Shown here: one piece after another, positions 49,922-56,135 of the stretch
How the letters are laid out: each line of letters opens with the position of its first letter
How positions within the stretch are numbered: the stretch's first letter is position 1
Origin: Flavihumibacter soli
Lineage (GTDB): Bacteria; Bacteroidota; Bacteroidia; Sphingobacteriales; Sphingobacteriaceae
Assembly (NCBI RefSeq): GCF_010692725.1
Contig: NZ_JAAFZB010000095.1
Location: 372,001 to 436,000 of the forward strand
Direction: 5' to 3'
DNA length: 64,000 bases
Position numbers and translations under genes: made by a program
Notes under the pieces: generated by a model
Databases searched by the model: none
Seen by the model: only the letters and a program-made list of their open reading frames with translations
Told to the model about the DNA's origin: nothing

Positions 49922-50386
49922 TTAGGAAAGCAGGCTTTGACGCAACATGAATTCCAGCTGATCGTTGCTTGTTGCCAACTTCCCGTTCATTGTTTTGATC
50001 TCCTGGTCTTTGGTGTAAGCATCGTAAGCCCGTTGAATAGTTTCGTCAAGCAACTCTTCGTTCCATGGCTTACTTAAGTAGTGATAGATTTTACCCTTAT
50101 TAACGGCATCAATCACGGCATTCATATCGGCATAGCCTGTCAACAATATCCGCATTGGATCCGGATATTTCTCCAGCACCTTTTCAAGGAACTCTATCCC
50201 TGTCATGTTAGGCATTCGCTGGTCTGTGATGATGATCTCTACCGGTTTTTTTTCCAGCACCTTCATCGCTTCGGCCGCGCTTATAGCGATCATGACATTA
50301 TATTTCAGGCGGAAAGTAGCCTTGAATGACATCAGATTATTTTCTTCGTCATCAACATAAAGTAAATTGATCTTTTTATCGGACAT
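49922..50386 (-). CDS. Response regulator, receiver domain only (divergent from the GNAT-ThiF-kinase operon)
   Basis: A 154-residue stand-alone receiver. I start at the ATG at 50386 (MSDKKINLLYVDDE). The acidic pair is D12/D13, the phosphoacceptor Asp55 is in ITDQRMPNMTG, Thr83 is in LLTGYAD and Lys106 is in LSKPWNE. There is no DNA-binding or output domain, only a helical tail of about 30 residues, so it should act through a protein partner. Its receiver is closely similar to the one at the N-terminus of the hybrid kinase at 54631 (both have LYVDDE-NNLM-FKA-FR and DQRMP), which suggests that both talk to the same kinase. Confidence 0.9.
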   Translation of the reverse strand: MSDKKINLLYVDDEENNLMSFKATFRLKYNVMIAISAAEAMKVLEKKPVEIIITDQRMPNMTGIEFLEKVLEKYPDPMRILLTGYADMNAVIDAVNKGKIYHYLSKPWNEELLDETIQRAYDAYTKDQEIKTMNGKLATSNDQLEFMLRQSLLS

Positions 50387-50507
50387 TTGCGTATAAAGTA
50401 TTTTATGCACAAAAATAGCATAAAGTTAATTAAGATTTGGGCGGTTTTTTCAATTGGATTTTTCGATACAAGTAGATAAGTAGCAGTTTAAAAGGTTTAG
50501 GGCAAGA

Positions 50508-51326
50508 ATGGAAGTAAGTTTAAATAAAGATAATCCTGAAGTAAGACTTAGAGTATTTCGAGCGATCGATGATCCTGAAGCATGCGAGAAATTTTTAGAA
50601 GGTCATACGCATGTGTTGACGAGTATAGGCATTACTAAGGTTACCTCATCAAAGCATGAATGGACCCAGAATCCGGCTGCTTTTGTTCTTATTGTTGAAT
50701 CTTTAGATAAAAAGAAAGTTTATGGCGGCGCCCGCGTGCATGTCGCAGGCGGTTCCGAGCCCCTTCCGATCGAGCAGGCTACCGCAGCTATTGATCCGAA
50801 GATCTATGATATCGTATGGGAATATGCCCAGCACGGTACCGGTGAACTATGCGGTTTGTGGAACTCCCGGGAGATTGCAGGTTATGGCATTGGCAGTATC
50901 TTCCTGATACGCGCCGCTGTCGCTATTTCCTACCAGATCGGATTGCAGTCGCTATTTGCTTTGTGCGCACCTTATACGGTGAAACCCGGTGAATGCGTCG
51001 GTATGGAACTGGAAGGCAGGGTCGGCAATGACGGAACGTTTTATTATCCCAAGCTGGACTTAGTTGCGACCAGTATGGTTGTTAAGGATGTACCTGTTTT
51101 GAGCAAAGCCCACGAGGAAGATAAGGCAGCCATTTTTAAGATCAGGGACAACCTGAACATTGTACGGTTGGAAGTGCTTCGTAAAAAGGAGATCACCATT
51201 CACTACGAAACCAAGATCGACAACCTGGAAAAATGGGACCTGAATGAAGTGATTGAAAACGCCCGGATAAATTACAAAAAAGTCAGAGGAAGTGTACCAA
51301 ATGACTTAATCCCCGATATTTTATAA
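50508..51326 (+). CDS. GNAT-like / autoinducer-synthase-like protein, first gene of the signalling operon
   Basis: A 272-residue soluble protein. Residues 57-80 (PAAFVLIVESLDKKKVYGGA, then RVHVAGG) look like the paired strands before the GNAT acyl-CoA site, and LWNSREIAGYGIGS at 117-130 followed by a helix and FALCAPYTV fits motif A, where AGYGIGS could be the pyrophosphate loop. The FeeM/LuxI-like N-acyl synthases share this kind of layout, but I cannot confirm the family by eye. It is followed 4 bases later by the Rv1355c-type E1-like gene. No signal peptide. Confidence 0.6.
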   Translation: MEVSLNKDNPEVRLRVFRAIDDPEACEKFLEGHTHVLTSIGITKVTSSKHEWTQNPAAFVLIVESLDKKKVYGGARVHVAGGSEPLPIEQATAAIDPKIYDIVWEYAQHGTGELCGLWNSREIAGYGIGSIFLIRAAVAISYQIGLQSLFALCAPYTVKPGECVGMELEGRVGNDGTFYYPKLDLVATSMVVKDVPVLSKAHEEDKAAIFKIRDNLNIVRLEVLRKKEITIHYETKIDNLEKWDLNEVIENARINYKKVRGSVPNDLIPDIL

Positions 51327-51330
51327 AAAC

Positions 51331-52437
51331 ATGTTACAACATAGTGATACCGTAAGCGCCGATACCGAATCAATTGAATCAGTTTACAGACCAGTTATAC
51401 TAAGATTGAATCAGCTTGATGATAAGCTGACCTACGATGCGCTGATCTCAAATGGGAACGTAAGAACTCAGGATAACATCTATTCTCAACTGAAAGAGCT
51501 TCTGAAATCCCGCAATCCAACAATTCAACTTCAGGAAAGCGATTATTCGCAGCTAATAGAAGCTCACCTTGCAGGAACTGATTTGTCCGAATATGGCGCG
51601 TGGGTATATTACCCATGGAACAGTACTTTAATTCATATTCTCGATGAAGAAGAATTTTTTGAAGTACGCACCACCAGGAACCGGGTGAAGATCACCTGGG
51701 AGGAGCAACAGACTTTAAGATCAAAACGTATCGGCATTGTCGGACTATCGGTGGGCCAATCGATCGCATTGACCCTCGCGATGGAACGTACTTGCGGCGA
51801 ATTACGACTGGCAGATTTTGACACCCTTGAATTAAGCAACCTGAACCGCCTTCGTGCAGGATTACATAACCTTGGGATGCCGAAAACCGTAATAGCCGCC
51901 AGGGAGATCGCAGAGATCGATCCTTTCCTGAAGGTCAGGATCTTTAACGACGGATTAAACAGTGAAAACATGGATGCCTTTTTTACCGGCGGCGGCAAGC
52001 TGGATCTTTTTGTTGAAGTGTGTGACAGCCTGGATATTAAGGTTTCAAGCAGGTTTAAAGCAAGATCCCTTCAGATACCTGTTGTAATGGACACAAATGA
52101 CCGCGGCATGCTTGATATAGAAAGGTTCGATACAGAACCGGAGCGCAGCGTTTTTCACGGTTTAATCGATGAATTTGTCGATCAAAGCGGGCTGAAGCCT
52201 TTGGAACCCTCCAATCGATTTGCACTTTTAAGCGCCTTGGTTTCATTCGACTCTTTGTCTGAACGAATGAAGCTGTCAATGACAGAAATAAATAAGACTA
52301 TAACCAGCTGGCCCCAGCTGGCCTCCTCGGTAGTATTGGGAGGAGCGATCACTACGGATATTTCCCGGAGAATTTTACTTGGACAGCACCATGCCTCGGG
52401 CAGATACTATGTGGATCTGGATCAGTTAATTAATTAA
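51331..52437 (+). CDS. Rv1355c-family E1-like (ThiF/MoeB) protein, nitroreductase half missing
   Basis: A 368-residue protein of the Rv1355c (MoeY) family. Residues 85-125 hold the family's own N-terminal block (YGAWVYYPWNSTLIHIL, then EVRTTRNRVKITWEEQ). The E1-like nucleotide-binding fold follows: GIVGLSVGQS at 135-144 and ADFDTLELSNLNRLRAGLHN at 161-180, which is the ATP-binding/adenylation region. Cys231 in FVEVCDSLDI sits in the region where E1s read DCTDN, but it is not a clear catalytic Cys. Rv1355c itself has a C-terminal nitroreductase, and this protein ends before it. The activated substrate is unknown. Confidence 0.82.
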   Translation: MLQHSDTVSADTESIESVYRPVILRLNQLDDKLTYDALISNGNVRTQDNIYSQLKELLKSRNPTIQLQESDYSQLIEAHLAGTDLSEYGAWVYYPWNSTLIHILDEEEFFEVRTTRNRVKITWEEQQTLRSKRIGIVGLSVGQSIALTLAMERTCGELRLADFDTLELSNLNRLRAGLHNLGMPKTVIAAREIAEIDPFLKVRIFNDGLNSENMDAFFTGGGKLDLFVEVCDSLDIKVSSRFKARSLQIPVVMDTNDRGMLDIERFDTEPERSVFHGLIDEFVDQSGLKPLEPSNRFALLSALVSFDSLSERMKLSMTEINKTITSWPQLASSVVLGGAITTDISRRILLGQHHASGRYYVDLDQLIN

Positions 52438-52442
52438 GGCTG

Positions 52443-54629
52443 ATGACCAGCGTCAATGATGTTATGAAAATTCTAAAAGTATTCTTCCTGCTGTTATGCC
52501 TCACCTTAACCAGATCTGCATTCGGACAGCAGCTGATTCCCATTACAGAGGTATTAAATGGTGACTATATCGGGAATGAGGTTCTCGTTTTCCAGGACTC
52601 AAGTGCCAGCTTAAGTTTTGATCAGGTAAGGTCTACACCCGGGTACTTTAAACCAAACAAACTTAAGGTTCCTAACCTGGGGATAAGCCAAAGCACCAGT
52701 TGGATCAAATTTAAATTATTCAACAATGCAGTCAGAGAGGAGTTCGCGCTCAATCTCTCTAACCCGATAATTGACCAGGTCGTTTTATATATCCTCCGAG
52801 GTAACGGGTCGGTAGACAGCATCTATAGCGACAAATTTACCCCCTTGTCGAACAGGCAGTTCAATCACCAGTTCTATCTCTACAGGATCGGTCTCAAGAA
52901 CGGGGAAACTGTGACATGCTATCTGAAACTTAACAGCAGTCAGCAGATACTTGCGCCCATAACGATAAACAGTGCGGAAAGGACTTTAGCATTAATCAGC
53001 AGCTCTGATACCCAGGCGGGTATGTATCTCGGTATTATGATCGTTATGCTTCTGTATAACCTGTTCGTTTTTCTTTCGGTAAGAGATAGAGACTATCTGA
53101 TTTACTGCCATTACATTTTCTGGGTAGCACTCACCCAGGCTACTTTGCTGGGTTTCTCCCATCGCTTTTTATGGGGCGATAATGTCTGGCTATCGCAGCA
53201 TATGATGACCTTCTGCGGTGCTATGTCCGGGATTGCTACAATCAGGTTCGCGCAGGTGTTCCTTAAAACACAGAAGTTCGCGCCCAGACTTAACATGGCG
53301 CTCAATATCACGATTATTGCCTACCTGGTCTCAATTTGCTTCCTGATCGCTGATTTCAGGATGATAGCCTACCAGATGGTTAATTTGATAGCCGTTACAG
53401 GATCACTGGTCGTTATCGGTGCTGCCTGGACCGTTTATCGGAAAAAATACAAGCCGGCCCGTTATTTTTTAATTGGCTGGTCGATCTTCTTTGCGAGCGT
53501 GATCATATTCGTGGTGAAGGATTACAACATCTTACCTTATAATACTCTAACAATACATGCTATTGAAATCGGATCGGCACTGGAAGCCATCTTCCTTTCC
53601 TTCGCACTTGCGGGAAAAATAAATATTCTGAAGAAAGAGAAAGAGATCTCCCAGGCTGAGGCTCTCACAATCGCGAAAGAAAATGAAAGAATTATTCGTG
53701 AGCAAAATCAGATCCTTGAAGCAAGGGTAAATGAGCGTACCCTGGAATTGAGTGCATCCAACGCAGAGTTGAACCAAACGCTTGTTGACCTGAAAGAGGC
53801 GGAAAGCCAGCTGGTAGAAGCCGAGAAAATGGCTTCGCTTGGTCAGCTTACAGCCGGTATAGCCCATGAAATAAATAATCCGATCAATTTTGTCACATCA
53901 AATGTAAATCCCCTGAAGCGGGATATCGATATCCTTCTTCAAACCATTGATACATTTGAAGAAGTAAGTCAGTCTGATTCATCTGCAGCCGAGAAACAGC
54001 AGCAGATCGATGACTTTAAAGAAGAAATTGATTTTGATTACCTGAAGATGGAGATAGGGCATCTGCTGAAGGGGATTCATGAAGGTGCATCGCGGACAGC
54101 AGAAATTGTCAAGGGGCTTCGGATCTTTTCCCGTCTTGATGAGGATGACCTGAAACAGGCCGACATTAACGAAGGGATCGATTCGACGCTGGTTATCGTA
54201 AACAATTTACTGAATAACAAAATCGAGTTGCAAAAAAATTACGGTCCGATTCCCGTGATTGAGTGTTATCCAGGTAAGCTTAACCAGGTCTTTCTCAATA
54301 TCATATCCAACGCAATACATGCCATAAACAAAAAATTTGATGGCCAAAACGGTGGCAAATTGACCATAAGCACCGAAAACGATGAAGATAATGTTTACAT
54401 CAAAATCTCAGACAATGGTACCGGAATGACTGAGGCAACCCGAAAGAAGGTTTTTGAACCTTTTTTCACCACCAAGGACGTCGGCGAAGGCACTGGCCTT
54501 GGAATGTCCATCGCTTACAATACGATCCGAAGACATCAGGGTGAGATTACAATTAATACAAGCCCTGGGATTGGAACCGAATTTATTATTGAGCTGCCCA
54601 TTATTATGGAAGCTATAGAAACGAATTAA
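52443..54629 (+). CDS. 7TM-DISM sensor histidine kinase
   Basis: A 728-residue kinase. Signal peptide ([16 protein letters not shown]), an extracytoplasmic 7TMR-DISMED2 sensor (about 35-180; [10 protein letters not shown] and the strand pattern), seven membrane segments (about 190-390), a coiled coil (about 395-460) and a HisKA/HATPase core. His475 in [15 protein letters not shown] is the phosphorylation site, the N box is [16 protein letters not shown] near 613-628, G1 is DNGTGM (657-662) and G2 is GEGTGLGMS (681-689). The DISMED2 domain is thought to bind a carbohydrate-like or other small ligand. It starts 5 bases after the E1-like gene. An ATG at 52464 is an alternative start. Confidence 0.93.
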
Positions 54630-54630
54630 A

Positions 54631-55722
54631 GTGAATAAGCCTGAAAAAATAAAAGTCTTATATGTTGATGACGAGCTGAATAACCTGATGGGTTTTAAGG
54701 CTTCCTTCAGAGTCAACTATAATATTTTAATTGCTCAAAACAATGAAGAAGCTCTTGAGCATCTAAAGAACCATCCTGATATACGGGTGATCTTTTCAGA
54801 TCAGCGAATGCCGGACAAAACCGGTGTAGAATTTTTTGAGCAAATCAGAGGAACATATCCTAAACCTATCAGGATCCTTATCACCGGCTATACAGACGTT
54901 GAAGCAGTAATCAATGCGATTAACCTTGGAAATGTTTTCAGATATGTCAAAAAGCCGTGGAGCGAAGCAGATATACTCACCGCCATCAATGAGGCGAACA
55001 AGTTTTACGTCGCCAACATGCTCATGGAGACAAAGAACGCAGAACTGCAGATCGCATACGATGAGCTTGATAAATTTGCTTACAGCGTGACTCATGATAT
55101 GCGAAATCCGCTCCTAAGCATTTTGGGCGCAGTGGAATTATCGCGGGAAATAGATGACATATCAGAGATCAGGGAAATGCTGCATCTCATCAAGGAATCG
55201 GTAGGAAACCTGGATGCATATATCCAGAATATCCATGATTACTATAATGTTAACCGCGGGCAGTTGGAGATCTCGGAAATCGACTTTAAAGATATTGTTG
55301 AAGAACAACTTGAAACTCACCGGCTAACCGCGAAAATGAAACAGGTAAATTTCAATACACGAATTGTTCAGAATGAGACTTTCCGGGGCGACGCTATGTC
55401 GATGAAGATCATATTAAACAACCTGCTTTCAAATGCTTTTAAGTACCAGAAAAAGGAGCGGACCGACAAGAACGTTGAGCTGGATATAGTCGTAGATGCC
55501 GGCGAACTGACGATGCTAATTAAGGACAATGGTATTGGTATTTCAGGTAATCATATCGGGGATATTTTCAATATGTTTTTCAGAGCCACTTCACAGGATG
55601 TGGGCTCAGGGTTTGGACTTTATAACGTAAAAGACGCCTTGTTAAAACTTAACGGTGAAATAAAAGTTGACTCAGTTATTAACGAGGGCACAACTTTTAC
55701 CGTAAAAGTACGTAACAAGTAG
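54631..55722 (+). CDS. Receiver-histidine kinase hybrid (receiver at the N-terminus)
   Basis: A 363-residue cytoplasmic protein: a receiver domain (about 5-125; acidic pair D13/D14, Asp57 in FSDQRMP, Lys108 in VKKPWSE), a short coiled-coil linker and a histidine kinase core. His155 is in SVTHDMRNPLLSI, the N box is LNNLLSNAFKYQ near 262-273, G1 is DNGIGI (299-304) and G2 is GSGFGLYNV (325-333). It starts at a GTG 1 base after the 7TM kinase stop, so it is strongly coupled. Its receiver is nearly a copy of the one at 49922, which fits a relay in which the 7TM kinase phosphorylates this receiver and its own kinase passes the signal on. Confidence 0.92.
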   Translation: MNKPEKIKVLYVDDELNNLMGFKASFRVNYNILIAQNNEEALEHLKNHPDIRVIFSDQRMPDKTGVEFFEQIRGTYPKPIRILITGYTDVEAVINAINLGNVFRYVKKPWSEADILTAINEANKFYVANMLMETKNAELQIAYDELDKFAYSVTHDMRNPLLSILGAVELSREIDDISEIREMLHLIKESVGNLDAYIQNIHDYYNVNRGQLEISEIDFKDIVEEQLETHRLTAKMKQVNFNTRIVQNETFRGDAMSMKIILNNLLSNAFKYQKKERTDKNVELDIVVDAGELTMLIKDNGIGISGNHIGDIFNMFFRATSQDVGSGFGLYNVKDALLKLNGEIKVDSVINEGTTFTVKVRNK

Positions 55723-55724
55723 AA

Positions 55725-56135
55725 ATGTCATCCTTACAACCGAATTTCATAGTAATCGACGATAGTCGCTTAGATTGCTTTATCTCCGAAAAAATTATTA
55801 GAAATAGTGGTAACTCCGGCTCTGTCCGCAGTTTTACCGAAGCTTCTGAGGCACTTCAATTCATAAAAGACGCCCCGATTATAGAACATCCTAAGACTGT
55901 AATTCTTCTGGATATACAAATGCCTGTAATGAGCGGATTTGACTTCGCTGAGGCATTTGAACAATTGAACGAGGATAAAAAATCCGACTACATAATTTTT
56001 ATGGTGTCTTCTTCAACCAACGAATCGGACCGTATAAGAATTGGCAATTATCCCTCGATAAGATGCCTGTACAAAAAGCCCCTCAATAAAGAAATTATCA
56101 ACGAGCTTATTGACCAGGTTTTTATAGCGGGTTAA
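55725..56135 (+). CDS. Response regulator, receiver domain only (end of the signalling operon)
   Basis: A 136-residue stand-alone receiver: acidic pair D12/D13 in IVIDDSRLD, phosphoacceptor Asp63 in LLDIQMPVMSG, Ser in FMVSSSTN and Lys in LYKKPLNKE. It belongs to a different receiver subgroup from those at 49922 and 54631 (IQMP instead of QRMP), so it is the likely target of the hybrid kinase. No output domain. It starts 2 bases after the hybrid kinase stop and its stop overlaps the convergent amidase gene by 4 bases. Confidence 0.92.
   Translation: MSSLQPNFIVIDDSRLDCFISEKIIRNSGNSGSVRSFTEASEALQFIKDAPIIEHPKTVILLDIQMPVMSGFDFAEAFEQLNEDKKSDYIIFMVSSSTNESDRIRIGNYPSIRCLYKKPLNKEIINELIDQVFIAG

Follow-up and report, generated by a model that had tools for sequence, protein, structure and literature searches.

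A Bacteroidota gene cassette, a candidate small-molecule signalling system, whose tailoring enzyme and kinase sensor half are exchanged together

The window analysed here is a stretch of 64,000 nucleotides from Flavihumibacter soli (contig NZ_JAAFZB010000095.1, positions 372,001 to 436,000), and our subject is a six-gene cassette within it that encodes an N-acyl amino acid synthase-like protein (A), the enzyme of a "tailoring" slot (B), a sensor histidine kinase (C), a receiver joined to a histidine kinase (D) and two lone receivers (E and F). Across Bacteroidota loci the slot filled by B is interchangeable, and the tailoring enzyme and the sensor half of C swap together; A, the kinase half of C and D do not follow. 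Judged from sequence comparisons, the cassette is quite likely to be a self-contained small-molecule signalling system of the autoinducer type, for which we infer a product, a ligand, a direction of phosphotransfer and an output. Its features, in positions of the window, are as follows.

49922-50410, minus strand: F, lone receiver, 162 amino acids (aa); Response_reg 9.3e-20 (Pfam); divergent here
50411-50507, no strand: F-A intergenic region, 97 bases between the divergent frames, probably holding both start regions
50508-51326, plus strand: A, N-acyl amino acid synthase-like protein of predicted FeeM/LuxI-type GNAT fold, 272 aa
51331-52437, plus strand: B, ThiF-type ATP-dependent cyclase of the TrzS/Rv1355c family, lacking the flavin-oxidase half, 368 aa; the tailoring slot
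52443-54629, plus strand: C, sensor histidine kinase, 728 aa; DISMED2 ectodomain 45-175, 7TM 193-390, HisKA/HATPase_c (Pfam)
54631-55722, plus strand: D, receiver and histidine kinase, 363 aa; Response_reg 9e-17, HisKA 8.2e-10, HATPase_c 7.2e-20 (Pfam)
55725-56135, plus strand: E, lone receiver, 136 aa; Response_reg 2.6e-10 (Pfam)

An earlier sequence-only reading of the window had described six genes, with gaps of 4, 5, 1 and 2 bases (A-B, B-C, C-D and D-E) and a divergent lone receiver. The open frames agree with this layout and its strands, and the Pfam domains agree with its 7TM-DISM kinase, receiver-kinase hybrid and lone receivers.

Relatives of A were found in 85 of 151 sampled genomes at the level of the family, 162 of 300 at the level of the order, 74 of 395 at the level of the class (spanning 21 family groups) and 13 of 392 at the level of the phylum. 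We fetched 80 of the 85 family places and loci from 60 of 70 genomes outside the family that had a match in the class and phylum surveys (five and ten, respectively, were not fetched), together with 80 named loci that were the best 80 of 552 relatives in a GTDB-wide scan. Removal of identical A tails dropped 25 of 220 loci and left 195 distinct Bacteroidota loci. Counting the window's own group, the fetched loci represent 18 of the 21 family groups, with one further group from another class; the same gene set recurs across them, far beyond chance.

The cassette-type DISM kinase C was present in 193 of the 195 loci, the two without it being contigs of 6.3 and 3.6 kb, and in all 193 it lay downstream of A on the same strand. 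We also looked for the cassette kinase in 25 family genomes without A, drawn from the 66 A-less family genomes and in part from the wider surveys. It was absent from 24 of them, in which no match exceeded 147 bits, compared with at least 639.7 bits in five genomes with A. The exception, G139, in which no A was detected, gave a match of 646.5 bits in a fragment at a contig edge. The same genome has a second, more distant DISM-type kinase match (G139:C65:20539-22629; 310 bits at 31% identity), and roughly 1.9 kb beyond it a further kinase is matched. The sequence-only reading had proposed searching Bacteroidota for the gene set and had considered that the GNAT-like and Rv1355c genes might occur elsewhere without the kinases, their linkage being chance. 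The set does recur, and chance linkage is not what we found, because C accompanies A in nearly every locus and the cassette kinase is missing from nearly every A-less genome.

The tailoring slot of the 195 loci held a short ThiF protein in 60 cases (including L121, scored so though a contig end cuts the gene), a ThiF-oxidase fusion in 84 and a class I S-adenosylmethionine (SAM) methyltransferase in 45. The remaining six slots held an enzyme of the isoprenylcysteine carboxyl methyltransferase (ICMT) type (two), an FAD-linked oxidase (one), nothing recognised (one) or an oxidase fragment at a contig edge (two). In the 44 methyltransferase loci that have a long C, the order was always A, tailoring gene, C; ThiF loci had either this order or tailoring gene, A, C. 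In L080 (G067, the window's genus group), the cassette is flanked by GDSL lipase and BrkB-type genes, as in the window, and the ThiF gene lies upstream of A, not downstream. The two ICMT-type proteins (L212:8324-8962, L243:9756-10394) are membrane enzymes of an unrelated class able, possibly, to methylate a carboxyl group; the FAD-linked oxidase (FAD_binding_4) occupies the slot of one genome (L103:7367-8974). A shared role of all slot enzymes (cyclase, SAM and ICMT-type) in capping a carboxyl group is an attractive idea and is weakened by the L103 oxidase and by the slot of L227, in which nothing was recognised. The ThiF-oxidase gene of L096 (10164-12472) lies in two frames, and kinase C is likewise split in L053 and L175, through decay or assembly error.

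The joint exchange was assessed on trees of 168 rows, comprising the window and 167 of the 195 loci (those in which A, C and D were complete and the slot held a ThiF protein, a fusion or a methyltransferase). With slot type scored as methyltransferase versus ThiF, the number of Fitch steps was one for the ectodomain and two for the 7TM region, compared with 16 for A, 18 for the kinase half and 17 for D. Scoring of three slot states gave 11 (ectodomain) and 13 (7TM) steps versus 32 (A), 38 (kinase half) and 39 (D), and shuffled labels gave about 75. Within windows of 90 columns, C required 1-5 steps up to residue 417, six at the junction and 18-21 beyond it (A, 15-17; D, 17-20). The break thus sits at the sensor/kinase junction: residues of C to about 415 follow the tailoring type, and those from about 418 do not. 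On the sensor tree, 43 of the 44 methyltransferase loci fell into one clade (support 0.998), with L229 outside.

Independent pairs of loci differing in slot type were counted among 115 representatives, window included. For the 11 supported pairs on the kinase tree, the sensor clade differed in the same way in 10, in the opposite way in none and not at all in one (p 0.002); the corresponding counts were nine, zero and one on the A tree and 11, zero and one on the D tree. The sensor clade used for this test was chosen after the labels had been seen, which makes the step counts less prone to bias. An approximately unbiased (AU) test was run on the window, 22 methyltransferase loci and 40 other loci drawn at random, with L229 left out. 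It rejected a single methyltransferase clade for the kinase half (2.8e-6), for A (2.5e-7) and for D (4.5e-103), and the sensor tree of this set placed the methyltransferase loci in one clade with support 100. It is these AU rejections, the step counts (one versus 16-18) and the break at the junction that show the tailoring enzyme and the sensor half of C to swap together.

Pairwise identities gave a similar picture. Among pairs whose kinase halves were 60-70% identical, ectodomain identity averaged 38% between methyltransferase loci, 25% between methyltransferase and ThiF-type loci and 28% between ThiF-type loci. Methyltransferase distances fitted those of the ectodomain (r 0.95) better than those of the kinase half (0.79). 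L067 and L063 share 87% identity in A, 79% in the kinase half and 76% in D, compared with 23% in the ectodomain and 27% in the 7TM region. In genus group g4, where flanking genes are common to eight of the nine loci compared and three slot types occupy the same address, identities between types were 82-96% for flanking genes, 84-93% for F, 78-92% for D and 76-82% for the kinase half, and 32-35% for the sensor half and 41-46% for A.

The window cassette itself looks like such a mosaic, judging by the relatives of its parts. The closest relatives of its A are in two methyltransferase loci (85% identical); its kinase half shows much the same proximity to fusion loci (73-74%, four of them of the window's genus) as to methyltransferase loci (72-73%); and its D is nearest to the same-genus L080 (71%). 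The seven nearest sensors, with at most 49% identity in the ectodomain and 64% in the 7TM region, all belong to short-ThiF loci, and the window sensor lies inside a clade of 33 loci, all short-ThiF (support 0.971).

Sequence searches left the identity of A unsettled. No profile matched in Pfam, NCBIfam, PADLOC or PHROGs, matches by sequence in the PDB were at chance level (E 0.21 and 0.98), and no match to A at E 1e-3 was found in the plasmid collection. It was settled by a structure search with the predicted fold, which returned FeeM first and acyl-homoserine lactone (AHL) synthases next. Among 56 aligned relatives of A, PF00583 was matched in six and PF21926 (FeeM) in one. The description of A as GNAT-like is thereby upheld, and the comparison with LuxI/FeeM that the sequence-only reading had called for places the predicted fold among FeeM/LuxI signal synthases. 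The product of A is probably a common precursor for several slot types, since close relatives of A serve cassettes with different slot types.

B matched ThiF in Pfam (5.2e-18) and positions 5-339 of the 722 in the Rv1355c family profile NF005901 (473.5 bits, cut-off 476), that is, its ThiF half only. The earlier assignment to an Rv1355c-family ThiF/E1-like protein therefore holds for this half; the flavin-oxidase half is absent. D162, R173, K185 and D232 of B are invariant, as expected of intact adenylation residues, and D232 presumably corresponds to Asp217 of TrzS, going by the ThiF/MoeB motif. No flavin oxidase was found in B or its neighbours (Pfam, NCBIfam). A separate nitroreductase elsewhere in the genome was sought with one oxidase half as query: 11 of 15 genomes, the window's included, gave no match, and the other four carry their match at the cassette itself, although a more distant oxidase could escape this search, as relatives are only about 31% identical to the query. 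A reading of B as part of an E1-E2 antiphage system was dropped because the operon has no E2 or ubiquitin-like partner domain (Pfam); in PADLOC only the ThiF core was matched, and weakly (2.9e-9 at best).

With DISMED2 (5.7e-28) and 7TM (7TMR-DISM_7TM, 1.5e-46) regions fused to a kinase (HATPase_c), C is a 7TMR-DISM sensor kinase; its HisKA match fell just below the Pfam cut-off (26.1 versus 26.9 bits). Phosphorylation-site motifs are kept in related loci: the His of C in 189 of 189, the Asp of F in 174 of 176 and the Asp of D in 168 of 175. The His-Asp/Glu motif of D was found with a loose pattern in 154 of 175, some of these matches being of the wrong form. F occurs in 176 of the 195 loci, at either cassette end, D in 175 and E in 101, the loci lacking D, E or F being explained partly, not wholly, by contig ends. 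Two F genes stand side by side ahead of the cassette in L107 and L110. D is longer than the usual 360-370 aa, at 508-546 aa, in L240, L241, L244-L246, L248, L249, L252-L255, L258 and L259. The plasmid matches of D that were inspected belonged to other receiver-kinases or to kinases. In L208, L209, L217, L218, L220 and L263, the cassette is followed by a gene for a protein of about 900 aa; that of L208 has no Pfam match. A Pfam scan of ten proteins, the cassette and its flanks, detected no DNA-binding domain and no domain of any kind in A.

Several parts of the cassette resemble known systems. N-acyl-cyclolysine (ACL) signalling in Bacteroidota was reportedly described by Linares-Otoya et al. 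2025 (Nature), with the ACL said to be sensed by the transcription factor AclR. Given this pathway, acyl amino acid signalling in Bacteroidota is not itself new. The cassette differs from it in having a membrane kinase and relay and no recognised DNA-binding protein (Pfam), and B resembles AclA only weakly in sequence (profile match of 33 bits).

In biosynthesis, the cassette resembles the acyl-oxazolone pathways TrzAS and TyzACB (both Mycobacterium tuberculosis) and OxzAB (P. rubra). TrzA and TrzS have been shown to acylate tryptophan and then cyclise it with ATP, the TrzS (Rv1355c) family makes acyl-oxazolones in actinobacteria, and TyzA is stated to have the FeeM/AHL-synthase fold (PMC12856293, PMC10404671). 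These pathways and the cassette share an acyltransferase of that fold (predicted for A) beside a ThiF-type cyclase, with 4 bases between A and B in the window, and both B and its fused relatives match the Rv1355c family. The window lacks the flavin oxidase, which is fused in 84 of the 195 related loci. The cassette operon also differs in including a DISM kinase and relay, the available portions of those papers naming no receptor for the oxazolone pathways, and in that its slot may hold a methyltransferase instead.

The likeness to the Ralstonia PhcBSRQ quorum-sensing operon is one of architecture only: a signal enzyme, and a sensor kinase (PhcS), a receiver-kinase (PhcR) and a lone receiver (PhcQ) that are proposed to act as a relay (PMC8578825). 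The slot enzyme is a methyltransferase, as PhcB is, in 45 of the 195 relatives; the cassette has an extra acyltransferase, its sensor is of the DISM type, and in the window the slot holds a cyclase in place of the methyltransferase. N-acyl tyrosine clusters of Massilia, Thalassotalea and Stieleria have an N-acyl amino acid synthase near ThiF and nitroreductase genes, with a methyltransferase gene also near in Stieleria (PMC12479983). There, methyltransferase and ThiF stand together, whereas in the cassette they replace each other, and the available portion of that paper mentions no kinase.

On our best reading of these sequences, the product of the cassette would be an N-acyl amino acid that is cyclised or methylated by the slot enzyme, sensed by C and relayed in a Phc-like manner. 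A would couple an acyl chain to an amino acid, and B would adenylate the carboxyl group of the N-acyl amino acid with ATP and close a ring, most likely giving a saturated acyl-oxazolone, with a lactam as the main alternative. The product would leave the cell and bind the DISMED2/7TM half of C, which would hand phosphate to the receiver of D, to the lone receivers E and F, or to both, as proposed for PhcS-PhcR-PhcQ. Output would occur by protein contact, because none of the six genes encodes a recognised DNA-binding domain. A ThiF enzyme would make a ring, a fusion a desaturated ring and a methyltransferase a methylated form, each read by its matched sensor half; since the sensor half of C is replaced along with the slot enzyme, the maker and the reader of each form would stay matched. 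Of the two roles that had been suggested for the first two proteins, the comparative evidence favours the making of a small molecule sensed by the kinase, as the sensor half varies with the slot enzyme. Modification of a relay protein is harder to square with the data, since it is the predicted extracytoplasmic and membrane half of C, and not the relay, that changes together with the slot enzyme.

A number of observations weigh against this interpretation. The tailoring gene adjoins the 5' half of C, with a median gap of 10 bases (107 loci), so the two could be transferred jointly by linkage alone, moved by homologous recombination, with a sensor that does not bind the product. In g4, the replaced stretch includes A, which does follow slot type there (same-type pairs 56-77% identical) and mostly does not elsewhere, and gene order also differs between the ThiF-fusion and other types. 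Sensors diverge fast in any case, same-type pairs of g4 sharing only 42-58% of the sensor half. The distinction between short ThiF and fusion follows the sensor less clearly, with 10 steps versus 17 on each other tree; the ratio for such pairs was 4:0 for the kinase tree, about 2:0 for the A tree (neither significant) and 6:0 for the D tree (p 0.03). For ThiF loci, ThiF-domain distances showed no preference for the sensor (fit of 0.48 versus 0.53 for the kinase half). The sensors of both ICMT-type loci group with those of ThiF-type loci, and the smallest sensor clade containing all 44 methyltransferase loci also holds four fusion loci. We nevertheless consider linkage alone an unlikely explanation: A lies about as near on the other side (median gap of 22 bases) yet requires 16 steps versus one, as the L067/L063 comparison illustrates, the break sits at the sensor/kinase junction, and a single sensor clade holds 43 of the 44 methyltransferase loci.

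The nature of the product and the role of the kinase allow further alternatives. The oxazolone assignment rests on family membership, and the solved structure nearest to B is AclA, which we take to be an acyl-lysine cyclase. The same signalling system might thus produce an acyl-lactam of the acyl-cyclolysine kind, a variant that overlaps with our interpretation and that we regard as possible but rather doubtful, as B belongs by sequence to the TrzS family (473.5 bits) and is far from AclA (33 bits). The role of oxazolones is described as open, and stress has been suggested (PMC12856293); the product could accordingly be a lipid or stress metabolite and the kinase a sensor of an outside cue that induces its synthesis, with sensor type differing by the condition served. 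This proposal, which partly overlaps with linkage alone, seems improbable to us: each change of tailoring enzyme would require a matching change of cue, and the predicted FeeM/LuxI-type fold and the operon order resemble signal synthesis and reception. Finally, A and B might acylate or adenylate a relay protein, either a receiver or a kinase, in place of a small molecule. E1 proteins act on protein C-termini, and the tailoring enzyme does co-vary with a part of C. That part comprises the ectodomain and membrane region, however, and D takes 17 steps; B has no CxxC, no ubiquitin-like partner domain is present in the operon (Pfam), and the characterised TrzS acts on small molecules. Protein modification is therefore, in our view, very improbable.

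The sequence-only reading knew of no system built from these parts. This stands for the combination, of which we found no published report in the open-access literature (most subscription papers and preprints were outside the search), and does not stand for the pieces, which have characterised relatives in TrzAS, AclA and PhcSRQ. What is new is the candidate membrane-kinase receptor, the interchangeable slot and its joint exchange with the sensor half. On balance, we lean towards viewing the cassette as a plug-in chemical language, in which the kind of synthase and the phosphorelay are kept and the tailoring enzyme and sensor half move as one module, as happened about ten supported independent times in our sample, giving private channels of oxazolones, desaturated oxazolones and methylated acyl amino acids. 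If this is true, the cassette would hold the first proposed receptor for acyl-oxazolones, to judge from the open literature that was searched. Relatives of oxazolone genes share an operon with this candidate receptor, which suggests a possible role for the puzzling acyl-oxazolone lipids, and the natural swaps of enzyme and sensor are ready-made experiments. The cassette would assign ligands to one branch of the 7TMR-DISM kinases, and it would add to Bacteroidota a signalling system beside the acyl-cyclolysines, one whose A relatives occur in 74 of the 395 sampled genomes of the class.

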